From a virus, in IMG/VR virus record IMGVR_UViG_3300009149_000228, positions 1 to 26,867 of that record: a stretch of 26,867 bases of DNA; one strand, written 5' to 3'. Shown here piece by piece: positions 1 to 19,938 of this stretch. Position 1 is the stretch's first letter. Each line of letters begins with the position of its first letter. The position numbers and the translations under genes were made by a program. Below the pieces are notes generated by a model. That model made no database searches and was not told the origin of the DNA. It saw only the letters and a program-made list of their open reading frames with translations.

Positions 1-3000
1 GTCACGATAGACTTGAGTCATAGCGTCGTCCCCAATAGCTTCACGGGCTTCTAGGTGCTGCTTCAAGTCTATTATAAGTCTATCGATCTCAGCTTGAGTC
101 AGTCCTTGAGAAGTCAAGTCGTAGTCTCTGCTTGTGCCTCTTGCGTAGGCATCTGCTCCTAGGATATTACCACTCTGCAACAGAGTATTTACTGAGGCCG
201 AGAAGTTTGGAAGTGTGATTTTTGAACGTAAGTTTACATCCTTGACAACACCTAACTTACGGCTCAGGTCTTCCTGTGCTTTACGTAACTCGTTCACAAC
301 TTTACGTTGGACGATCTTCCCAGCTTCTGCCCTCTCCCTATTCCTAGTAGCTTTCTTCTCGTCTTTGGCGAACTCTTTTAATTTCTTTTCAGAGGTCCGC
401 AATTCAGAAGTAGCTTTTTTCTTTTCTACGTCGGTAGAATTAGCTGAGTTTAAGATCCTCTCAGCGTCTGCCTTACGGTCAGCCCATTGTATCTGTTTAG
501 AAATAGCCTTAGCCTCTTCCTCGGTAGACTTCTTTATTTGTTTCTCGATAGCCCCCAGCTTATCTGAAGTCCTATTAAGCACATCAGAGATTTCAGAGAA
601 AGCATTCTTTAAAGCTTTACCTCTACTGTCCTGCCAAGGTAGCCCTTGAATCGTAGCATTCTGGTCGATAGCTAGTCCCGGAGGTGGGTTGAAATCGTTA
701 TCTAAGTAATCTTGTAACGAGTTATAAGACTTCTCTAAATTACTTAGTCCCAACTTACGGAAAGTTGTGAAGAGGTTTGAACCAGTCAAACCTAAACGAG
801 TAAGAGTATTTTGGAAACCTTGAGAGTTCCCTATGTCGTTAATAATACCCCTAACGATATCTTGAACATAATTCTTTTCCGCAATGTCCGTCTCGATATC
901 AAGTTTCTGATTGTCCCTTTTCCGTTTACGGATTGCGTTGATCGCCGCAACGTTTTGTGAGTAAGTCTCACTCCGCCCTATGCCTAGGTCGGCATTGATC
1001 TCAGTGTCTGACCAAACCATTTCGGGAGAGACGAAAGATTCTGTAGGAGCTTTTACTTTGAAGGCTTTGAAGAAACTCCCCATTACCTTGTTAGCTTCAG
1101 CTTCCCCTGCCGAGTAGGTGTATAGAGTATAGGCTGCGGATTCTGCAAAACCTCTGGCTATCAACTCCCCAGCTTTATTTTTAGGAGCAACCCCTGAAGT
1201 TATAGCTTGTAGCTGGTCAACAGCATTCAGCCCTCTGCGTAAAATTTCTGCATCAAGTGCAAGTTTTTTAGCTAATTTGCGCTCATTACCCCCTCTTTGT
1301 GTAAGTTCTCCGGCTCTTTTCTCTAGAGAATCGATGAACTCTTCAACCCAAGAGCGCCTTTCCATCATCAACCTTCTTGCGGTTTGGTGGTTGTTACCCC
1401 CTTCAAAACCTTCTATGAATTGGATTGCGTGCTGAACCTCGTGTAACAAGGTAGCGTGATCTAGTAAAGGATCTCCTGTGAAGTTCACACTCATTAGGTT
1501 CAGTCCGAACTGAGCGGCTTGCTTTGCTGCCTCTCTGCGGATAGTATCGGCTGGAAGCTCTCCGTCTACCCCAAACTGGAGGGCTTGTCTTGCTGATTCT
1601 GAAAAGAGTTCTAGGTCACCTGTCGCAAAGAAACCACCGGTCTTGTTACTCTCTACGATAGTGAGAGTCATTTCAGCTAGTTCTGGGTATGCTTTGTACA
1701 AGGTTGGGTGATCTAACAAGTTTTTGAGCTTGAAAGGAACTGTACGGTTTCCGTCTTCGTCGAGCTCAGCAGCTAGGTCCAACATCTGTTTGACTAAGTC
1801 TACGTTATATACCGAGCTACTATCATCGACTTCATACCTAAGGAGTCCGTCTACCTCCCCGTTGTAGACAGCTTTCTTACGAAGCCCCTTTACAGCTGAG
1901 AAGCCAGACTCTCCAAAGATCAAGAAGGATTCTGTATCGTTTGTAAGAGGGGACTGAGTTGTACCTGTCTTAAGTGCTTGATCTCGATACGCATCCAAGA
2001 TCTCGCCATACAGGTCCAAGCCCATCATTCTTTTGATCGCTTTAAGGAAACCTTGAAGAATTCTCTTTAGGTGAGCAATGAAACCTTTTGTTTCCTTGTT
2101 AGGATTAAAGTCTTTCAAAGTCCTCTTTGACATGTTCTCAGCGAACCACTCAGCTAAGTTCGACAAACGATAAGTCTCCCTGTCGTAAATAAAGGCATAG
2201 CTACCATCCTCTTGTCTTTTGAAGAAAGTCTTTTGGTACTCGTTTAAATTATCGAAACGTTCTTTGGTTATGTTCGGATCTGCAAAAACAAAACCTAGAC
2301 CCGTATCCTTAGAGAACTTGGCACGAGCTTTATCAAAATCTTCCTGTAACCTACGGACGTAACTAGGCGGGAGCATAGGCTCAAGACTGTGCCAAAGTTC
2401 GTGTAACAAGGTATCTACTAAAGTATCTGGGTTCCGTGCTGTGTTTATCCCCAACTCAACGAGTCGTTTAGCGTAGGTAAAAACCCCACCTTTGATACGG
2501 TTGCCGATCAAAAGAGATACGTCGTCAAACAAAGAGGGGCCTATAAAGTTCAAAAGTTCCTCGATATACGAGAGTGTATCCTGCGACAGGTTCATCCCAT
2601 CTCTTCTCAACTCCCTTAAGATCTGGTCAGCTCCCACACCATCAGGGACTCTTGCTGAGGTATCTTGTCCTTGAGTCTGAGCATCTTCCCTAAGTTCTTT
2701 CTCCGTTCTCTGGGCCTCGTCGTTAAACTCAGGCATTTGAGAAGTCACTGTATCTGGGTCGTCTTGTAGTTTTTTCTCGTCCTTCAGGACACTAGCAATA
2801 TCATTAGCAAGGAGGAGGTGAGCTATCGAGTTGTCAACGGTATACGCAGCTGATGCGTTCTTCAAGGCCTTGTAATTTTCGAAGAAAGCCTTTGCGTCAG
2901 GGACTGAGGCTATAAGCCCTTTGACTATGTTGGTTAACCCTTTTACAGTACTCAAGCTCTCGAAATCCTCCGCCCTTGTAGCTACATCCTTTACCGCTGC

Positions 3001-6000
3001 CACAAAAGAGTTTAGGTCTTTATACTTCGTGTCTTGGAGGTCTATCTCTGGTTCGGGTTCCGCTTCTTGTTCAACTTCGGGTTCCGCTTCTTGTTCGACT
3101 ACGACGTCACCGAGTTTACTCTCAGCTATTTTCTCGGCTATCGTGTCCTTAATATCTGAAATCTTGAGCGAAGTACCTTCTGCTGTTGCTCTCTTTAGCT
3201 CTTCGTCGACTAGAGTGTCTACGGCTGGAAAGTCTTCGTGGTTGTCTAACCAGTTACGTACCTCGTTAGCATTCTTGGGATCAAACCCTGATTGAAACAT
3301 CTCGACACGCACACTACGTAGGCCGTTCGTCACAAAGGTCTCATTAACTCCGTCTGTTGAAATTTCTTTCTCTAGGAGGGTAGATTCGTTTATATCCCCA
3401 AACAAAGAAGCTTCTTGATTGATTCCTTGAGGGGCGGAAGGGTCACGGGAAATCTCACCTACATCACTCTCAACGCCTTCTCTGGACTTAGAGATTTTTG
3501 GTTTGGTGGCCACCTTAGCTACTCCTTGAGTGGAAGTTCTACTGCTTGTGGCGTCTATAAACCCTCCGAGAGGAGCTTTCAAATCTTTATAACTGAGTTC
3601 TCTATCAGTCCCAATAACCCCGATCACTCTTGAATCTTTGGGTAAAGACCCTCGATCCCTCATAGTTTTAAGACTCTCGGGTTTTCCTAGTTCTTTACCT
3701 TGCTTGTTAGCACGCTTAAGTACTGGGGCTATGTACTGTTTAGAGTCTCTCCTAGCGGCGTTCTCTACATCAATTATTCTGTTATTAGCATCGAGGTCTT
3801 CCTTCAATGTGTCTAGGATAAAGGTGTTAGGGTCAGCCTTCCCTATAGTAGCCTTTCGTATTTGAGTGTGGTTCCTCTGTTGTATGGGAACAAACCTTAC
3901 GCTCTCTGAACCCTCATTGAGCACTACGGCATACATGTGAGGTTTCTCCTCATCCCCAAAAACCGGGTTCGTGAGACCCTCTTTCTTATTCCCCAGTACA
4001 GAGAGAGGAGTTACTTTTAGATCTTTTTTGGAAAGAGATTCTACGTTAGTTGGGTTGAGAGGTCTATAAACAGGAGCATAGTTCCTTAACTTTGTCGGAG
4101 CTGATTTAGCTGTCAGTACCGAACCTCTAGGGACTGTAATGGTAGTGTCTTCATCTACTTGCACTTGCACAGTGCCTTGTAAATCCCTCACTACTGTCCC
4201 CGTAACAGGCAAATTAGTTCTAGGGTCTAAGGCTCTTACCTCTGTTCCTTCAGGTATTAGGGAGGCCGAAGTATCTTTATCCTCCCGTAAATCTGAAATA
4301 GGAACGTTGTATGTAGATATCTTATCCCTAGTCTGAACAACCGCCCTGTCGCCGGTTTTTGAAATTATGTTACCTTGTATTAAAAACGAAGCTTCCCCTT
4401 TCTCGTTTCTAGACGGGAATATGATCGGATCTCCTACCTCGAACTTCTTTGGAGCTTTAGCCTCTGGCGTGTCTACTTTGGCTCTTTCTTCCTCAGTAGG
4501 TTTAAGGGCTTCTTCTACATCTGCTGTGGGTTGGGTTTTCCTCTCCGTATTCGTCGGCGTATTCGTCGGCGTATTCGTCGGCGTATCAACCTGTACTTCT
4601 TCCACTTTCTTAGGTTCAACCAGTCCATCTTCCGAGGTCTTCTCAGTAGGGATGTCAGCTATATTTTGGAAAGTCTCAAAGGCAGTTAACAAGTTAGTAA
4701 CCGCCTGTGCTGGGAGGATAGGCTCATATTTGAGTATAACTTCAACAGCGGCGTCTAAATCTTTTTCATCAGAAGCAGCTATGAAAGCCTTCTTAAAAAC
4801 TTCTACTATATCTTTACGTACCTCGGTAGGTGTATTGTTGGCGATACCGGCTGCGATAGGCCTAAATACTTCTTGGTCGACCTCAGCTATATTGTTTACC
4901 AGATGTATTGACCTGAACATTTTTTCAAGCCTCGCTTGAAAGGCCGTCCTTGCAACAGCTTCGTTTGCGTCCTTTTGGATCTTTTCAGCAGCTCTCCTGT
5001 CCGCTCGAATTTCCTCCCTGAGAGCCTCAATTTTCTCAGCTTCTGCTTCTACAGCAGCTTCTGCTTGTACTCTTTCCCTCTCAGACTGTATCCGAGCTAC
5101 GCCCTCAGCTACTCTGTTATTAAGTTCCTCTCTCCTCGCTAAGACGGCAAAGTCTTCTACAAATTTAGCTTCTCGAGCCGCTGCCTGTTCAGCCTGTATC
5201 TCAGGAAGCACAGCGTTTTGCATAGGGACTATTAAATTTTCATTTACCCCTTTAAGGTCAGCCCCCGTGAGGATTGCATTAACTATCTCGTACAGGGCTC
5301 CTTTCCTTCTAGTCAAAGCTTTATCGTTAAGTACGCTTTGTAGAAGTTTAGCTCTACGTCCCGACTCTGAAGTAACAAGTAAACCTCCTTTGGATAGTTC
5401 CTCACGTATAAAACTTTCAGCCCTCCCAATTATGGAAACGTCCTTTGCTACGTCCAAAGCCTCTGCTATAACAGCTTCATTAATCGTCTCCGGCTGGGCT
5501 GAGATTAACTCGTGAAACCCTTGCAGAGCGAGAGAGTCATTTTCCAATTCTTCTAAAGCTAGAGCGACAAGCTGTTTTTGGTCTCCTTGTAACTGGTCGT
5601 GTAGGAGGCGTAACTGAACCAGTGGGTTTTTGTTCTCTCTCAAATTTCGGAACAAGTTAGTCTGAACCCGTTGAAAGTCTTGGTATCTCTCAAAACCACT
5701 TTTAGTTCCTCTAGGTGGGAGTACGATCGTAGCTCTTGAAGCTGAAGGTTTCCTAGGGCCTTTAGGCTGTTTAGGTGGAATTATTGTTGGCCCTGTAGAC
5801 GAGGATCTAGCCTCAAGTCCTAAAGGTGTTTGAGGTTCTGGAGCTTCTTGGTCTGGCACTGAAGTTTCTTCCCCCGCCTCAATAGTGAATACATAATCAC
5901 TAGGTTTTTCCGGGTTCTGCTCTCTACGACGATCGTTGAAAAACTCTAAAGCCCCAGCACCTCCTCCTAACGTGCTACCTACCAAACCTCCAGCAGCAAA

Positions 6001-7518
6001 GGCGTTAATCAATCTCTTGTTCAAAGACGCTGCATCAAATTCTCTATTAGGGTCTGCGGCTACTACTGCGATCTCTTGCATTATTTCTTGCAAGACTTCG
6101 GTGGTTCCTTCTGCAAATCCCACAGTGGCAGCTTTTTCGCCAAAGGCTCTCAGGAAGCTTCTTGTTGAGGGTGTGAGAGCTAGGTCTACTTTCTGAGCCC
6201 CTGCCTTCAGTTGTTGGATGGTAGGTACTTCGTCTCCAACGGTTGTAACCTCAGCGTCAATCCTCTTAGCCGAATCAATAGGGTCTGTCTCTTTTCGAAC
6301 TCGGGTCGATAGAGGGCCTACGGGTTCCCCAACAGGCCCTACAGAGTTAACTTCTACTCGCCCTCCTAGTTGCTGAGGAGCTTGTCTAGTAGGCCTTACC
6401 CCCGGTTGAACAAACCCACCTACTTGAAAAGTGTCAACTGGAGTTGTAGGAACGACACCTCTTTGGTTAGGAATCCCTGTGATGTCGACAGGCCTTTCGA
6501 AAGCGGTACCTTCTTTAAACCTAGGGCCTTTGCCTCTCTCGAGACTTCTGAAAATAGATTTACCAAGACCAACCTCAACAAGGGAATCAAGGAAACCCGA
6601 AACAAGACCATTACTTAAAGAGGCTGCAACTCGGTTAAAGGAGTCTACACCTTCGTTGTTAAGTTCGTTGAAAGTTTGTCCTGAAGCTTGAACAACCCCA
6701 TCAGCAAAGGCAGCTCCTTGGGCTGACAGTTTAGATAACTCGTTAAGGTATCTAGGAGAGGTCGCTTCAAAAGCTCCCTTAGGGAGATTTTGGCCTTTTT
6801 CTTTTCGCAACATACGAGTTGCTTTTATTCTAAAAGTATCGGGGGACTGTCTTAGTATTCCCTCTAGTTTGTTCTTTTGAGCTTTATCGATAAGCCCATC
6901 TTTGAACATGTCTTTGATGTCGTCTTTGAAAATCTTTTTCTTAAGGGAGCTCTTTACTTTAGATTTTACACCTTCGGAAACAAGTTTCTGAACTCCAGCT
7001 TTTGCAGCTAGTCCGGGAATACCACCACCGACTACAGCAGCGCCTACTGTTGAAACTAAATCTGGACCCTGTTGAGCAAGTCCTCCTACGGCGAAGTCAG
7101 CAATATCTCGTAGCGTGTTACCAGTCCTACCAATATCTGTAAATCCACTGATCGTGGTTTGGTTACGGCCCGCCTCCTCCATGTTAGCGATAGCACTCTC
7201 CTCAAGAGACTTCCTAACACCCCCTAAGATCGGAGTATCTTTTTGAACACCAAAGGTTTCTAAACCTAAAGCCCCAGCCCCTTGCAAGTTTGCTTGGAGC
7301 ATATCGACCCCAGAACTTAGGTTCTTGGAAGCGACTTGTGTAATAGGTTCACGAGTTGCGTTTAGGTAATCCTTGTACTCGGTCTCAAGACCTTCGACAT
7401 CATCAAACCCCGTCCCGTTCTGTTCTCGGGAAGCCCCTAAAGAAGAAACAACCTCTGCACGGGTTAGTTTAGGATTGAATAATCTACGGGCTTCAAGGAT
7501 TTGATCTACAGAACTCAT
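1..7518 (-). CDS. Giant polyvalent, ejection-position protein with two HExxH motifs (C-terminus beyond the window)
   Basis: One uninterrupted frame of 2506 codons runs from ATG at 7518 to base 1, where it is still open. Visible parts: hydrophobic glycine/alanine-rich stretches near residues 150-180 and 445-530; a coiled coil near 750-870; acidic and TPTN repeat linkers near 980 and 1475-1490; HELWH at 1706-1710 followed by NLAEWFAEN at 1787-1795; HEVQH at 2026-2030 followed by SAGEAEA at 2136-2142; and a lysine/glutamate-rich coiled coil near 2300-2420. HExxH with a downstream glutamate motif is the zinc site of gluzincin-type metallopeptidases, and similar modules occur in phage large polyvalent proteins. 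It follows two internal-virion-like genes after a 36-base gap with no clear ribosome-binding site. I infer a cargo protein injected with the DNA. The substrates are unknown and catalysis is not shown. Confidence 0.88.
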   Translation of the reverse strand, partial: MSSVDQILEARRLFNPKLTRAEVVSSLGASREQNGTGFDDVEGLETEYKDYLNATREPITQVASKNLSSGVDMLQANLQGAGALGLETFGVQKDTPILGGVRKSLEESAIANMEEAGRNQTTISGFTDIGRTGNTLRDIADFAVGGLAQQGPDLVSTVGAAVVGGGIPGLAAKAGVQKLVSEGVKSKVKSSLKKKIFKDDIKDMFKDGLIDKAQKNKLEGILRQSPDTFRIKATRMLRKEKGQNLPKGAFEATSPRYLNELSKLSAQGAAFADGVVQASGQTFNELNNEGVDSFNRVAASLSNGLVSGFLDSLVEVGLGKSIFRSLERGKGPRFKEGTAFERPVDITGIPNQRGVVPTTPVDTFQVGGFVQPGVRPTRQAPQQLGGRVEVNSVGPVGEPVGPLSTRVRKETDPIDSAKRIDAEVTTVGDEVPTIQQLKAGAQKVDLALTPSTRSFLRAFGEKAATVGFAEGTTEVLQEIMQEIAVVAADPNREFDAASLNKRLINAFAAGGLVGSTLGGGAGALEFFNDRRREQNPEKPSDYVFTIEAGEETSVPDQEAPEPQTPLGLEARSSSTGPTIIPPKQPKGPRKPSASRATIVLPPRGTKSGFERYQDFQRVQTNLFRNLRENKNPLVQLRLLHDQLQGDQKQLVALALEELENDSLALQGFHELISAQPETINEAVIAEALDVAKDVSIIGRAESFIREELSKGGLLVTSESGRRAKLLQSVLNDKALTRRKGALYEIVNAILTGADLKGVNENLIVPMQNAVLPEIQAEQAAAREAKFVEDFAVLARREELNNRVAEGVARIQSERERVQAEAAVEAEAEKIEALREEIRADRRAAEKIQKDANEAVARTAFQARLEKMFRSIHLVNNIAEVDQEVFRPIAAGIANNTPTEVRKDIVEVFKKAFIAASDEKDLDAAVEVILKYEPILPAQAVTNLLTAFETFQNIADIPTEKTSEDGLVEPKKVEEVQVDTPTNTPTNTPTNTERKTQPTADVEEALKPTEEERAKVDTPEAKAPKKFEVGDPIIFPSRNEKGEASFLIQGNIISKTGDRAVVQTRDKISTYNVPISDLREDKDTSASLIPEGTEVRALDPRTNLPVTGTVVRDLQGTVQVQVDEDTTITVPRGSVLTAKSAPTKLRNYAPVYRPLNPTNVESLSKKDLKVTPLSVLGNKKEGLTNPVFGDEEKPHMYAVVLNEGSESVRFVPIQQRNHTQIRKATIGKADPNTFILDTLKEDLDANNRIIDVENAARRDSKQYIAPVLKRANKQGKELGKPESLKTMRDRGSLPKDSRVIGVIGTDRELSYKDLKAPLGGFIDATSSRTSTQGVAKVATKPKISKSREGVESDVGEISRDPSAPQGINQEASLFGDINESTLLEKEISTDGVNETFVTNGLRSVRVEMFQSGFDPKNANEVRNWLDNHEDFPAVDTLVDEELKRATAEGTSLKISDIKDTIAEKIAESKLGDVVVEQEAEPEVEQEAEPEPEIDLQDTKYKDLNSFVAAVKDVATRAEDFESLSTVKGLTNIVKGLIASVPDAKAFFENYKALKNASAAYTVDNSIAHLLLANDIASVLKDEKKLQDDPDTVTSQMPEFNDEAQRTEKELREDAQTQGQDTSARVPDGVGADQILRELRRDGMNLSQDTLSYIEELLNFIGPSLFDDVSLLIGNRIKGGVFTYAKRLVELGINTARNPDTLVDTLLHELWHSLEPMLPPSYVRRLQEDFDKARAKFSKDTGLGFVFADPNITKERFDNLNEYQKTFFKRQEDGSYAFIYDRETYRLSNLAEWFAENMSKRTLKDFNPNKETKGFIAHLKRILQGFLKAIKRMMGLDLYGEILDAYRDQALKTGTTQSPLTNDTESFLIFGESGFSAVKGLRKKAVYNGEVDGLLRYEVDDSSSVYNVDLVKQMLDLAAELDEDGNRTVPFKLKNLLDHPTLYKAYPELAEMTLTIVESNKTGGFFATGDLELFSESARQALQFGVDGELPADTIRREAAKQAAQFGLNLMSVNFTGDPLLDHATLLHEVQHAIQFIEGFEGGNNHQTARRLMMERRSWVEEFIDSLEKRAGELTQRGGNERKLAKKLALDAEILRRGLNAVDQLQAITSGVAPKNKAGELIARGFAESAAYTLYTYSAGEAEANKVMGSFFKAFKVKAPTESFVSPEMVWSDTEINADLGIGRSETYSQNVAAINAIRKRKRDNQKLDIETDIAEKNYVQDIVRGIINDIGNSQGFQNTLTRLGLTGSNLFTTFRKLGLSNLEKSYNSLQDYLDNDFNPPPGLAIDQNATIQGLPWQDSRGKALKNAFSEISDVLNRTSDKLGAIEKQIKKSTEEEAKAISKQIQWADRKADAERILNSANSTDVEKKKATSELRTSEKKLKEFAKDEKKATRNRERAEAGKIVQRKVVNELRKAQEDLSRKLGVVKDVNLRSKITLPNFSASVNTLLQSGNILGADAYARGTSRDYDLTSQGLTQAEIDRLIIDLKQHLEAREAIGDDAMTQVYRD
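3052..3099 (-). repeat. Two 24-bp copies coding for an acidic repeat in the giant gene
   Basis: Two near-identical 24-base units give the acidic repeat VEQEAEPE-type sequence at residues about 1474-1489 of the giant protein. It lies in a disordered linker ahead of the metallopeptidase-like region. Confidence 0.75.
4546..4584 (-). repeat. 12-bp minisatellite (3.25 copies) coding for TPTN
   Basis: The unit CGTATTCGTCGG is repeated without error three times plus a partial copy, encoding TPTNTPTNTPTNT at residues 979-991 of the giant protein. The perfect DNA identity suggests a recent expansion within a linker. Confidence 0.85.
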
Positions 7519-14055: not shown

Positions 14056-14678
14056 TATGCAGGTTGAGTAAAGTCTACGAACATGATATAAGCAAGAGCA
14101 TAAAACTTAGGACGGTTGTCGTGAGCCCCAGCTCCTCCTGTGTTTCCTTGAGCGTGGACGTGTCCCTGTCCCGCTAACCCGCTAGAAGACCCATCGTCAG
14201 TAGTTGATGTTGTCAGAGCGAACCGCTCTGCATTTGGGTTCTTGGATCCTATTTCGTTACCCCCGCTGGCAATGTTGCTGGCAAGCTGGTGCGTATGAGG
14301 AGGTATTTCAGATACAACAAGAGGGTGTGCGTTAGTATTCGGGTTCGTGTGGGCATGGTTCCCGATAGCGTCCGACCCTCCTGTCTGGCCATCCGTATAC
14401 CCAGAACCGGAACCTGCACCAACAACAAACCTTGCCCGCAGGTCTGGAGTCTGTTGTCCGTTATAAGTTCCCCCATTGCAAAGAACCCAACCTGTCGGAA
14501 TCGCAGCACTTGAGCCACTCCACAAGTTTATAACCCCTACTGGAGTACGTAAATCAAACTCAGCTTGGATACGAGTGTTGGTCGTGTCGATAGCTTCGAG
14601 ATTCTCGTCATGCTCTTTAGGAGTTAGAGGTCTCCCAGTTGGGATCCTCTTTATAGTAGTTGCTTGTGTGTAACTCAT
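14055..14678 (-). CDS. Phage tail-collar-domain fiber protein
   Basis: The protein has 207 residues. After a short helical N-terminus (1-45) it has the classic tail-collar pattern: PVGVINLWSGSSAAIPTGWV, LCNGGTYNGQQTPDLRARFV, then a glycine-rich stretch. Histidine pairs follow (HAH, HTH, HVH), of the kind that bind metal ions in trimeric fiber tips. It ends in DNRPKFYALAYIMFV, the usual C-terminal strand of this family. Such domains form the tip or collar of receptor-binding fibers. The gene overlaps its neighbours on both sides by TAATG. At about 200 residues it lacks the long shaft of a typical fiber, so it may be a tip that attaches to another tail protein. Confidence 0.88.
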   Translation of the reverse strand: MSYTQATTIKRIPTGRPLTPKEHDENLEAIDTTNTRIQAEFDLRTPVGVINLWSGSSAAIPTGWVLCNGGTYNGQQTPDLRARFVVGAGSGSGYTDGQTGGSDAIGNHAHTNPNTNAHPLVVSEIPPHTHQLASNIASGGNEIGSKNPNAERFALTTSTTDDGSSSGLAGQGHVHAQGNTGGAGAHDNRPKFYALAYIMFVDFTQPA

Positions 14679-17317
14679 TATGCGGTGAGGGTTGCAGAAG
14701 TTGTATTAACAGAACCAAACTCGTTCGAGATTACGCATCTGTATAGGTAGCCTATTTTTGGTCCTGTGTTCGTGACGGTCAGAGTCATAGAGTCTTCCCC
14801 GGAGTAATCTACTCCCGAAGGGATTGCTACGAAACCAGCTCCGGTATTCTCTTCCCAAGTATAGTCAAGAGTTTCTCCTTCAGTGGCCGTTCCCGTGCAA
14901 GAGAAGATCACAGGAGGGGAGGCGTCAGACTGGTTAGTTGGATTTGCTGAAACTGACGGAGCTGCCGTAAGGACAGTTAACGCAAAGGTATCACTGTCAG
15001 AACCTCCGGTATTCGTAACTGTTATACGGTATTCGAACTCGTCTCCGTTTTGAAGGTTGCTTATTTGCAGTCGAGAAGATCCCGCCGCATCCGTGATAGT
15101 GACGGTTCCAGAAGCGGAAGGACTTGGGTCAGCGTCATTTAGAGTAACCCAAACACCTCCGCCAGTAGAGTCGTATTCCCACACAACACTAGGCGCAGGA
15201 GCCCCTGTAAAGAAGTAGCTAACATCGAGTCCGTCCGTCTGTGCTAGAAACTGAGCACTATTTGAAGTGGTTAGGGCCGCTGCGGATTCATTAACTGTAA
15301 CCTGGGCACTAGATGAGATAACAGAACCAGCCCCATTACTGACCGTGCAACGGTAGTATTGTTGGTGGTCAGCTTGCGTGATCGCAGTGAAAGACAAATT
15401 AGCTGTCCCTTGTCCAGAGTCTCCGGGGAGGGCTGTTACGTCTGCCCAACCTGTAGCTCCGTCAGCGGAGTATTCCCACAAGTAAGTCAGTGGAGAAGAC
15501 CCAGTCACTGCCACGGAAAGGTTAAGGGTTAACCCTGCGTCTAGGGTTTGGGTCAAGGGATCCGAGGTTATGTATGGAGCTGATAACACGTCAAGAGTTA
15601 CAACATCTGACTGAACTTCCCCAGCAGCATTGATTACTTGACAGAAGTAGTCAGAACCATCTATCGCAGGATCCGCTCCTGTAATGGTGTAGGTATTCAA
15701 AGTTTCTCCACCGATCAAAGAACTCAAGGCCGAAGCAACTCCAGTCGGAGAGGTTGTAAAGTCAACAGCACTACCCCCTCGAGAGGTACTCAGTTGGAAG
15801 GTATTTGTCCCACCGCCATAAGAGTTGTTTATGACAAAGTATTGAGTTGCAGCACTAAACTCTCCGGGCTGTCCCGCAGTGAAAACAAAAATGTCTCCGT
15901 CGGTAAGCTGGTCTCCCGTTAGAGTTACCTCATCTGTAGGACTACTAAAATCAAGATTTACGCTGCCCGCTTCTACATACCATTGATATGTCGGTAAAGG
16001 AGAGCCTGTCGCATTGATTAAGAACGTTACATCATCGTAAGCGTCAATAGACTCGTTGATAGGCTGTAACGTGATAACGGGTAAGCTATCTACAAAAAGA
16101 GGAACTGTCGTAGAATCGACTGACCCTGCTGCGTTCGCTACGGTGCATAAGTAATCGTCAACGTCTGAGACGTCTATGTTACTTATAGTAAGAGTAGATC
16201 TTTGATGTCCAGAGACGGTGTCGTCTACAATACCAATATCTCCTCCTGCGGATAGAGGAGTTCCTCCTTTTTTCCAAGTGAAAGTCACGTCCGGTTCTCC
16301 AGCGGCTTCAATAACAAATATTGCAGTGCCTCCAGTAGTTGCTGATTGTAAAACAGGTTGCACGAGTATTGAAGGCGCTTGAGTTCCAATAGACAACACG
16401 GCCACGGCACTCTCTGTAGTAGCTACTGCGTTAGTAACTTTACAAGTATAAGCTCCTTGGTCAGCGACTTGAACATTTGTCAAACTCAAAGATATCGTAG
16501 CTCCTGAAGTTGTCGAACCGGATTCTCCTCCAATAGCCACAGCTGTTTTATACCATTGGTAAGTCATAGGTTCAGCTCCAGCTGCAACACACTCAAAGAG
16601 AACATTATCTCCGACAGAGGCAACATCCGTATCGGGTTGATCGGTAAAGAAAGGAGCGTCTGCAATGATTGCAAGGGTCGCTGCGTTTGATTCTGTGGAG
16701 CCTTTAGTGTTGGTAGCTACGCAAGTATAAGCTCCTCCGTCGGCTATTTGTACATTTGACAAAGTCAAAGTAGAAGCTGTTTCACCCCCTATAGGAGTTC
16801 CGTCAAGTTCCCATTGGTAAGTAGCGGCAGGGATTGCGTCCACAGTAACGAAGTAAGAGAGTCCTCCTCCTACGTTTGCAGCTTGTGAAGTCGGAAGTGG
16901 ATGGGCTGTAAATTCTGGTGCATACTCAATAGTTGCGGAAACAGTATCACTTGTAACGCTCCCAGCAATATTAGAAACTATACATTTGTAATCAGCAGCA
17001 TCGGTCTTTACGCTCGCAGCGATAGTTAGGGTAGAAGAAGTCTCCCCCGCAATATCTACGCCATCTTTTTGCCACTGGTACGAAGGGTCTGGTAGTCCAG
17101 TCGCCGTAACCGAGAAAGTTAAAACAGCTCCAAGGTCGACAGTTTGTGCAATGGGTTGTACAGAAATTACAGGGATTGTAGCCAGCTGAACTGTCACATG
17201 AGTAGTCTCTACCGAGCCCTCGTCGTTAGTAATTACGCAGTAATAGTCTCCCGCATCCGCAGCTTGAAAGTTTTCTATAACAAGTTCGCTGTTAGTCTCG
17301 TCTGTAATCTCTGCCAT
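14678..17317 (-). CDS. Ig-like repeat protein, probably the frameshift extension of the adaptor
   Basis: The protein has 879 residues built of Ig-like (I-set type) repeats with the signature W in strand C and D.G.Y.C in strand F. Units lie at about 1-45 (second half only), 47-131, 132-218, 219-310, 312-409, 410-577 (with a foreign insert at 452-531), 578-676, 677-782 and 783-879. Only the fourth and last show both disulfide cysteines. The missing first half of unit 1 is found at the C-terminus of the 430-residue gene just before it, in a different frame. Phage Ig domains are often added to structural proteins by programmed frameshift, and are thought to aid surface or carbohydrate contact. 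TAAGG, 6 bases before ATG 17317, would also allow separate initiation. The last codon overlaps the next ATG (TAATG). Confidence 0.9.
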   Translation of the reverse strand: MAEITDETNSELVIENFQAADAGDYYCVITNDEGSVETTHVTVQLATIPVISVQPIAQTVDLGAVLTFSVTATGLPDPSYQWQKDGVDIAGETSSTLTIAASVKTDAADYKCIVSNIAGSVTSDTVSATIEYAPEFTAHPLPTSQAANVGGGLSYFVTVDAIPAATYQWELDGTPIGGETASTLTLSNVQIADGGAYTCVATNTKGSTESNAATLAIIADAPFFTDQPDTDVASVGDNVLFECVAAGAEPMTYQWYKTAVAIGGESGSTTSGATISLSLTNVQVADQGAYTCKVTNAVATTESAVAVLSIGTQAPSILVQPVLQSATTGGTAIFVIEAAGEPDVTFTWKKGGTPLSAGGDIGIVDDTVSGHQRSTLTISNIDVSDVDDYLCTVANAAGSVDSTTVPLFVDSLPVITLQPINESIDAYDDVTFLINATGSPLPTYQWYVEAGSVNLDFSSPTDEVTLTGDQLTDGDIFVFTAGQPGEFSAATQYFVINNSYGGGTNTFQLSTSRGGSAVDFTTSPTGVASALSSLIGGETLNTYTITGADPAIDGSDYFCQVINAAGEVQSDVVTLDVLSAPYITSDPLTQTLDAGLTLNLSVAVTGSSPLTYLWEYSADGATGWADVTALPGDSGQGTANLSFTAITQADHQQYYRCTVSNGAGSVISSSAQVTVNESAAALTTSNSAQFLAQTDGLDVSYFFTGAPAPSVVWEYDSTGGGVWVTLNDADPSPSASGTVTITDAAGSSRLQISNLQNGDEFEYRITVTNTGGSDSDTFALTVLTAAPSVSANPTNQSDASPPVIFSCTGTATEGETLDYTWEENTGAGFVAIPSGVDYSGEDSMTLTVTNTGPKIGYLYRCVISNEFGSVNTTSATLTA
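15725..15964 (-). other. Foreign domain nested inside the sixth Ig unit
   Basis: Residues 452-531 interrupt an Ig domain between its strand-C tryptophan (QWYVEAG) and strand F (DGSDYFC). The insert reads DEVTLTGDQLTDGDIFVFT, then TQYFVINNSYGG, then NTFQLSTSRGGSAVDFTT. This is a recurrent phage structural module of the form 'hGL.dGD.v.Ft ... YyVvn ... tFqLS.tpGG'. Its function is not known to me. Confidence 0.6.
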
Positions 17318-17341
17318 ATTAAACCTTAAACCATTGGTAAG
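17315..17341 (-). promoter_or_regulatory. Putative +1 recoding site joining the adaptor to the Ig protein
   Basis: In the adaptor frame the end reads TGG TTT AAG GTT TAA. The Ig frame is one base forward and is closed upstream by TAA at 17344-17342, so any shift must occur within about 20 bases. Skipping one T at GTT TAA gives YQWFKVNMAEITDET, which restores an Ig domain with only one extra residue relative to its sister repeats. A mutation or sequence error losing the frame is the alternative. Confidence 0.55.
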
Positions 17342-18611
17342 TTATTCCGGGATTGCCTATAGCTCCCACGCCTAAAGTGAGTGTTCCGCCTTGAGCGATT
17401 ACTTGACCTTGTGGTTGTGTCAAAATAATAGGGCTAAAAGGTTCCGCTCCCCTACAAGTAGCGGGGCCTCTATCGACATTGAGTCTGCGTTCTCTCTTCT
17501 TAGCTGAGGCAAGCCTGCGTCGATATTCTTTGAAAGCTGCTGAAGCGGGTTGCGCTTTTGTCCCTGCTTCCTCTACATACCCGTAAATCTGAACTAGGAC
17601 AAAGTAGGAAATAGCTTTAGCGGCTGTTTCATTGAAAACTACTGTATCCCCGTCTGAGTAATCTAGTTTAGTACCTTCCCAAGTGATCTCTAATTCTACC
17701 ACATCCCCAAGTAATTGAGGATATACTAGGAACTTAGAACCTCTCGGGTCAAAGGTTATAACAGGTTCACAGTTACAGGAATTACAGATAACTTGATCTT
17801 TTAAGTTCCAAGGGACGAACCGTACTTGGCAACCACAAATATCCTCAAGTCCGGGATATCTTAAAGTAGCCGTGAGGGGTACCGCTCCTTCTGGTAAAGT
17901 TCCCTCAGAGGCGTTCCCTACAGGGAACATGTCAGAAGCGACGTATAGATTAGAATTTTCTAATCGGTATTCGGGTATAAAGTGTTGCAGGTCAAGGAGT
18001 CCTTGTCGGATCTGTTGGTCGATAAATACATCAAAACCTTCAATATCAAGTAGGGATTTTTCAATCTGTTCATCCATCCACTCGCCGAGGGCTTTAATAT
18101 CCTGCTTCCCTTCTTCGATCATAGCATCGACGTAATCGATCGTATTCTGACGGTCTTTATCGACTGGGAGGTAAACTCTTACCTTGTTACGTAAGTCAAT
18201 ATCCGAAAGGGCTGTTTCATACCCAACAAGGCGAAAACGATCTTTTTCATAAGAAGACCGTACAACCATTGCAAGTTCTTGATTCTGCTCTATTTCTGAA
18301 AGAATATTAGACTTAACAAATTTAGAGATTGTGGAAATAAACAAGGACTCTGAGTGGGCGTCAGATAGAAAATCCTTTACTTGGGTTTGTACGTCAGAAA
18401 GACTCAATGAAGTTTTATACCCCACCAAGTCGTTTCTCGCACTGTCGTAACTCCCTTTGTGGGAGCCATAGGAAGTAAGATCTCTTAGGAACTCTCGGGA
18501 ATAATTAGCTCGTACAAAGGTGGCTACGGTGCGGATCAACTGATCGTCGGTCCGGTCTTTGCCTCCTGTTGCGTTGTCTTTTACTAATTCCTTGAACTCC
18601 AAATAGGTCAT
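17319..18611 (-). CDS. Head-tail adaptor-like protein ending in half an Ig domain
   Basis: The protein has 430 residues. ATG 18611 has AGGA 5 bases upstream. Residues 26-91 and 92-157 are an ungapped tandem duplication (both copies have LVGY at the same offset). A cysteine cluster CGC...CNSCNC lies near 255-281. Residues about 335-385 (AAKAISYFVLVQIYGYVEEA and following helix with EYRRRL) resemble the C-terminal helix of podovirus tail-tube-A or adaptor proteins, which join portal to nozzle. The last 36 residues are strands A to C of an Ig domain (ILTQPQGQVIAQGGTLTLGV ... YQWFK), cut by TAA; the other half starts the next gene in another frame. Placement two genes after the capsid and decoration genes and before the tail genes fits an adaptor. 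The function is inferred. Confidence 0.85.
   Translation of the reverse strand: MTYLEFKELVKDNATGGKDRTDDQLIRTVATFVRANYSREFLRDLTSYGSHKGSYDSARNDLVGYKTSLSLSDVQTQVKDFLSDAHSESLFISTISKFVKSNILSEIEQNQELAMVVRSSYEKDRFRLVGYETALSDIDLRNKVRVYLPVDKDRQNTIDYVDAMIEEGKQDIKALGEWMDEQIEKSLLDIEGFDVFIDQQIRQGLLDLQHFIPEYRLENSNLYVASDMFPVGNASEGTLPEGAVPLTATLRYPGLEDICGCQVRFVPWNLKDQVICNSCNCEPVITFDPRGSKFLVYPQLLGDVVELEITWEGTKLDYSDGDTVVFNETAAKAISYFVLVQIYGYVEEAGTKAQPASAAFKEYRRRLASAKKRERRLNVDRGPATCRGAEPFSPIILTQPQGQVIAQGGTLTLGVGAIGNPGITYQWFKV
18141..18536 (-). repeat. Tandem 66-residue duplication inside the adaptor-like gene
   Basis: Residues 26-91 and 92-157 align without gaps. Shared positions include I1, T3, FV at 7-8, N11, E15, SY at 29-30, R34, LVGY at 37-40, T42, L44 and a later V-x(3)-L. 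The DNA copies have diverged, so this is an old duplication of a helical unit rather than a recent repeat. Confidence 0.65.
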
Positions 18612-19894: not shown

Positions 19895-19929
19895 AAATAA
19901 AAAGGAAGGCGAGGAGTTTAACCCTCGCC
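19895..19929 (-). terminator. Hairpin terminator after the major capsid gene
   Basis: A 7-bp GC-rich stem (GGCGAGG at 19908-19914, CCTCGCC at 19923-19929) with an 8-base loop is followed on the minus strand by TTCCTTTTTATTT. It starts 10 bases after the capsid stop codon. Partial readthrough would lower expression of the genes downstream relative to capsid. Confidence 0.75.
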
Positions 19930-19938
19930 CCCGTTAGG

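Follow-up and report, generated by a model that had tools for sequence, protein, structure and literature searches.

A giant phage protein with two zincin-like domains, a probable member of the polyvalent internal virion proteins

The source record is a virus fragment of 26,867 bases (the window, meaning the whole stretch of DNA analysed), the main genes of which all lie on the minus strand. A very long open reading frame at its left end carries two HExxH motifs, and the question is what such a protein would do for the phage. A sequence-only reading had noted that it lies where podoviruses encode proteins injected with the DNA and that it seems to have two different zinc sites, and had suggested that such a protein could attack host proteins or the cell envelope as soon as infection begins.

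The giant open reading frame and its neighbours

The frame starts with an ATG and runs for 2506 codons with zero stops until the left contig end truncates the gene; given the G+C content, a stop-free frame of such length has a chance of ~10^-61. Its features are listed below, the codon coordinates of the motifs having been confirmed by translation.

1..7518, minus strand: giant ORF, candidate polyvalent virion protein (2506 codons, C-terminus missing; domains homologous to other giant phage proteins)
5839..7518, minus strand: N-terminal region, residues 1-560, without clear homologue
1924..2634, minus strand: domain A, residues 1629-1865, lethal-factor/PPEP-type zincin-like, from relatives, conservation and predicted fold
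2389..2403, minus strand: HELWH, residues 1706-1710, predicted zinc ligands H1706 and H1710 and general base E1707
2149..2172, minus strand: YRLSNLAE, invariant tyrosine Y1783 and predicted third zinc ligand E1790 of domain A (73/73 sequences)
1069..1884, minus strand: domain B, residues 1879-2150, HExQH zincin-like, of the kind adjoining LPD23
1429..1443, minus strand: HEVQH, residues 2026-2030, predicted zinc ligands H2026 and H2030 and general base E2027
1102..1122, minus strand: YTYSAGE, conserved tyrosine Y2133 and predicted third zinc ligand E2139 of domain B (Y and E in 50/57 aligned relatives)

The motifs noted before, of which HELWH and HEVQH are the sole HExxH of the chain, begin at residues 1706 (HELWH), 1787 (NLAEWFAEN), 2026 (HEVQH) and 2136 (SAGEAEA, of which E2139 is part). 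Both the length of at least 2506 codons and the spacings of about 80 and 110 residues given in the sequence-only reading agree with our measurements, the latter being 81 from HELWH to NLAEWFAEN and 110 from HEVQH to SAGEAEA.

Whole-protein searches against phages and viral contigs returned no full-length homologue, the N-terminal 560 residues gave zero matches to viral contigs, and scans with Pfam, NCBIfam and PHROGs found no confident family for the giant protein. The weak Pfam matches to ThsB_TIR (0.08), SprT-like (0.095) and DUF6782 (0.047) were judged to be chance, except that the last two fall on HExxH. Residues 463-536 present a weak match to the DarB-like phrog_10089 (E 0.0027), and a glycine-rich, mildly hydrophobic stretch occurs near residue 153. 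By eye only, two tandem KOW/Tudor-like beta segments, EVGDPIIFPSRN... and PEGTEVRALDPRT..., may be recognized at residues ~1030-1132 (about 4122-4431, minus strand). An extension of the contig to the left had been suggested as the way to the C-terminus, which was not recovered because the sole near-identical contig (L172) stops before the giant gene and a probe made by back-translating a domain B peptide gave zero matches.

The gene order begins with a small coiled-coil protein, proteins of 832 aa (portal position), 519 aa (acidic, scaffold-like) and 563 aa (major-capsid position), and proteins of 199, 196 and 430 aa, the last of which stops midway through an Ig domain. An Ig-repeat protein of 879 aa, a collar-fibre protein and a virion structural protein of 948 aa (phrog_3287) follow, and after proteins of 461 and 578 aa comes the giant gene. 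The matches to collar fibre, Ig-domain tail and virion structural proteins share the strand of the giant gene, a late/virion context. Portal-, capsid- and scaffold-position proteins had zero matches in PHROGs or Pfam, those in the portal and capsid positions had no relatives in GenBank phages, and T7-like MCP and tail profiles gave no alignment with the structural proteins of the window. The names portal, capsid and scaffold therefore denote order and size only, and the podovirus nature is likewise read from gene order alone, since the structural genes lack clear T7-like or GenBank phage homologues. For the same reasons the phage is assigned to a poorly sampled lineage.

Some other characteristics of this region were observed. 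The portal-, capsid- and tail-position proteins lack detectable relatives in GenBank phages, and a single near-identical IMG/VR contig (L172) was found for the window. The 879-aa protein (14678-17317, minus strand) is built from some eight Ig-like domains, with matches to Pfam Ig_3 and to tail/Hoc-like families of PHROG. At 17310-17330 (minus strand), between the ORFs 17319-18611 and 14678-17317, an Ig domain is split across two frames: the first half forms the end of the 430-aa protein (...GITYQWFKV and a stop), and the second half opens the following ORF (MAEITDETNSELVIENFQAADAGDYYC...), which is in the +1 frame. This suggests either a +1 frameshift yielding a many-Ig fusion or a sequence error. 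A strong hairpin of 11 pairs followed by a T-run (19905-19932, minus strand) lies just 3' of the 563-aa capsid-position gene and is likely a terminator.

The two HExxH domains

Domain A belongs to a family that the Pfam, PHROGs and NCBIfam models did not recognize in the giant protein. The HELWH region as sole query found five relatives, and the domain A alignment as query found at least 133 confirmed relatives in IMG/VR viral contigs. HELWH, Y1783, E1790 and G1660 are invariant in the 73 sequences aligned, and F1664 and D1666 are near-invariant. Because HELWHSL and the E-motif had served as search probes, a bias check was run: Y and E are kept in all 58 sequences retrieved without the E-motif probe, and HELWH in six of six retrieved without HELWHSL. 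A scan of bacteria and archaea, with one genome per species and 84,980 species, returned a single relative; domain A is found almost only in phages.

The position of domain A in its relatives is that of a virion gene. In 45 loci the domain A gene is preceded by 6.5 kb or more of DNA. In 39 of these a homologue of the tail protein phrog_457 lies upstream in the same orientation, and phrog_446, the internal virion protein phrog_805 and a major head protein are usually there too. The order is head, tail, tail, internal virion protein, (large protein), domain A protein, and this is the position of gp15 and gp16 in T7. Three of the six exceptions without phrog_457 are copies of one sequence (L003, L006, L016), and L013, the closest relative of the domain A of the window, is also among them. 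The C-terminal part of one relative (L026) matches phrog_6651, an internal virion protein, with an E value of 2e-67. Another locus has, directly upstream of its domain A gene, a protein of 1068 aa (L053:5202-8405) the C-terminus of which is lysozyme/transglycosylase/peptidase-like (phrog_196, 21656, 13449).

The search of domain A against the sequences of solved structures in PDB gave chance matches only. Its AlphaFold2 model (pLDDT 71.9, core about 80-95, pTM 0.68) presents a helix and three strands, then the helix with HExxH and, further on, another at the E motif; the last ~40 residues, of low confidence, were excluded from the reading. In VIA-align the best rows were nearly all zincins, with anthrax lethal factor at the top (Z 6.7, 139 residues aligned, 4.5 A) and PPEP-3 close to it (Z 6.4, 129 residues, 3.9 A), scores that are moderate, as Z below 8 can reflect a common arrangement. 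Further matches included IrrE, aminopeptidases and Wss1/SPRTN, and the Foldseek list, although weak, agreed. The predicted fold of domain A is thus that of a zincin and is best matched by the lethal-factor/PPEP type, in line with the zinc site proposed in the sequence-only reading. In the lethal factor/PPEP clan the third-ligand Glu follows the active-site Tyr, as in domain A.

Domain B has homologues in the Pseudomonas phages AF (gp16), F116, H66 (gp60), LKA5 and others, and in EBPR podovirus 3 (tblastn). The family motifs are HPxLFxAYPxL, HExQHAIQxxEGF-xGG and Y-x3-[AG]GE-x-EAR. HExQH or HEINH is present in all 86 family members fetched, and 50 of the 57 aligned relatives have both residues corresponding to Y2133 and E2139. 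In domain B, as in domain A, an HExxH and a downstream predicted Glu ligand are therefore conserved among homologues, so the motif residues singled out in the sequence-only reading recur in both families. A first MAFFT alignment had pointed to AGELIAR (about 2116-2122) as the third-ligand motif; this was rejected, as SAGEAEA agrees better with the larger alignment and with the Y-x3-AGE spacing. At least two HExxH occur in 29 of the 86 domain B frames, and one locus (L125) has a 3641-aa open frame with two HEVQH (2005, 2438), in which domain B is possibly duplicated.

The H66 gp60 record describes a virion component verified by mass spectrometry. Together with the T7-like cassettes of the domain A relatives, this homologue supports the ejection position assigned earlier to the giant gene. 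A link to large-polyvalent-protein domains, also anticipated, appeared in the relatives: in H66 and AF, LPD23 begins just before domain B and overlaps its start, and the Foldseek matches of domain B among predicted viral proteins are named as large polyvalent protein associated domain proteins. LPD23 itself (PF18838) had no match above the curated Pfam cut-off in the window protein.

The model of domain B is good (pLDDT 77.6) and places HExxH on a helix with strands before it, but the fold search against PDB matched no solved zincin, and the domain B sequence gave chance matches only. The fold matches obtained follow long helical hairpins and were discarded as uninformative on the zincin fold. 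Because no solved zincin was matched, the assignment of domain B as zincin-like rests on motifs, secondary structure and homologues.

By profile comparison, A and B share 47 aligned columns, covering the strand and HExxH only, and each has its own conserved predicted third ligand. The two sites are thus distinct, as had been proposed, and by sequence they are assigned to different families with a small common core. Among all fetched loci the pairing of A and B occurs in the window only, apart from one marginal match (0.016) on the HExxH of L147.

Possible roles of the domains

The reading that we consider probable is that of a polyvalent internal virion protein, like H66 gp60, the DarB-like proteins and the N4 virion RNA polymerase (vRNAP), with two tandem zincins. 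Its relatives suggest that it would probably be packaged inside the capsid and leave it together with the DNA at ejection. From the conserved residues we infer zinc binding and peptidase activity for both domains: in domain A, zinc would be held by H1706, H1710 and E1790, with E1707 as base and Y1783 as active-site tyrosine, and in domain B by H2026, H2030 and E2139, with E2027 as base. The two zincins may then process their own chain, virion partners or a host protein around entry. The most likely substrate, although at somewhat less than even chances, is the protein itself or its virion partners, with parts released at maturation or post entry; a host protein comes next, as a possible target, followed by a non-proteolytic or assembly role. 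Self-processing has been proposed for polyvalent zincins, including P1 DdrB, beside host targets (Iyer et al., PMC5512222).

A tentative alternative is that host proteins are the targets, one or both domains being effectors that are injected and cut them straight after entry. The likeness of domain A to endopeptidases that act on other proteins (lethal factor, PPEP), its near restriction to phages and the strict conservation of the site residues are consistent with this, but fold likeness gives no substrate and the proposal of self-processing covers the same kind of domain. Somewhat less probable, in our judgement, is that the domains are structural relics that serve packaging or the building of an ejection tunnel, with no proteolysis. 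A precedent is found in N4 vRNAP, of which the HExxH-containing region is needed for encapsidation and the chain is packaged uncut (PMC5512222), and of which the C1 HExxH domain is described, with no activity reported, in the available text of PMC12633501. The His pair, base Glu and third ligand of the window protein, however, are near-invariant at 20-30% identity, which is hard to explain across such diverged relatives otherwise than by a bound metal. Both outcomes exist among proteins of the polyvalent kind, since P1 DdrB is processed and N4 vRNAP remains intact (PMC5512222, PMC12633501). More speculative still is the idea that a virion protein of an orphan lineage delivers two unrelated endopeptidases, the lethal-factor-like one cutting a specific host protein within the first minutes.

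An action on the envelope, raised in the sequence-only reading, would consist of the cleavage of peptidoglycan cross-links or membrane proteins. The position beside internal virion proteins, that of L053 having a lysozyme/transglycosylase/peptidase-like end, is compatible with it, but the same neighbour indicates that wall cutting there may belong to the protein next to the zincin protein. Neither domain resembles a known cell-wall peptidase, and this action, which found no support of its own, is regarded as very improbable. Finally, chance HExxH matches, conceivable for short motifs in a long chain, can be dismissed, with 0.009 expected for the two found in 2506 residues (16 His, 216 Glu) and with homologues that conserve the motifs and their third ligands.

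Comparison with known systems

Like the polyvalent proteins (Iyer et al. 2017, PMC5512222), the candidate polyvalent virion protein is very large (2506+ residues), multidomain, with more than one MPTase domain from two zincin-like families, and lies in a late virion context, both in the window and in the T7-like cassettes of relatives. Among polyvalent proteins, 36% carry one to five MPTase domains, about 8% carry more than one, and these domains fall in 12 clades (PMC5512222). Unlike them, the sequenced part has no nucleic-acid enzyme or LPD domain above Pfam cut-offs; the two zincin-like domains are the only ones recognized, the middle and N-terminal parts being orphan.

H66 gp60 and F116 gp59-60 (PLxRFG protein, LPD23, LPD3 and methyltransferase) share domain B at 26% identity, have a second HExxH about 200 residues downstream and are encoded by the last virion-block gene before the holin. 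Their second HExxH domain, unlike that of the window, is not domain A, and the PLxRFG and methyltransferase regions are not seen in the window; the PLxRFG of H66 lies ~800 residues past domain B, a place beyond the contig end here. AF gp16 (2213 aa, LPD22 and LPD23) also has the domain B homologue, with YRRLAGEVEAR as third-ligand motif, and two HExxH sites (HEVQH 807, HELGH 1007), the second of which is not homologous to domain A by profile. A distant domain A is present in the giant late protein gp27 of Erwinia phage Pavtok (DarB-like, 5007 aa; HEILH and YQLTNASE, profile E 4e-10), which differs in being annotated as a methylase/helicase/transglycosylase fusion and in that domain B was not found there.

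N4 vRNAP is a giant ejected protein with a zincin-like C1 HExxH subdomain, which others have linked to lethal factor (PMC5512222, PMC12633501); scans of the sequenced part of the window protein with Pfam, PHROGs and NCBIfam showed no RNA polymerase region. The best solved fold matches of domain A, the PPEP endopeptidases and the peptidase domain of anthrax lethal factor, have no detectable sequence similarity to it and belong to other organisms with another delivery.

The role of zincin domains in injected phage proteins is a question left open by the 2017 description of polyvalent proteins. Exact residues are now available for testing it (H1706, E1707, H1710, Y1783 and E1790; H2026, E2027, H2030, Y2133 and E2139), and functional tests could draw on the domain A family, which is tractable and counts at least 133 viral loci, in a position like that of T7 gp16. 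The domains are real and well conserved, and the protein conforms to the polyvalent type of injected phage protein as described before. Several zincin domains per phage protein were already described (PMC5512222), whereas the pairing of A and B, so far unique, and the orphan phage lineage are new.
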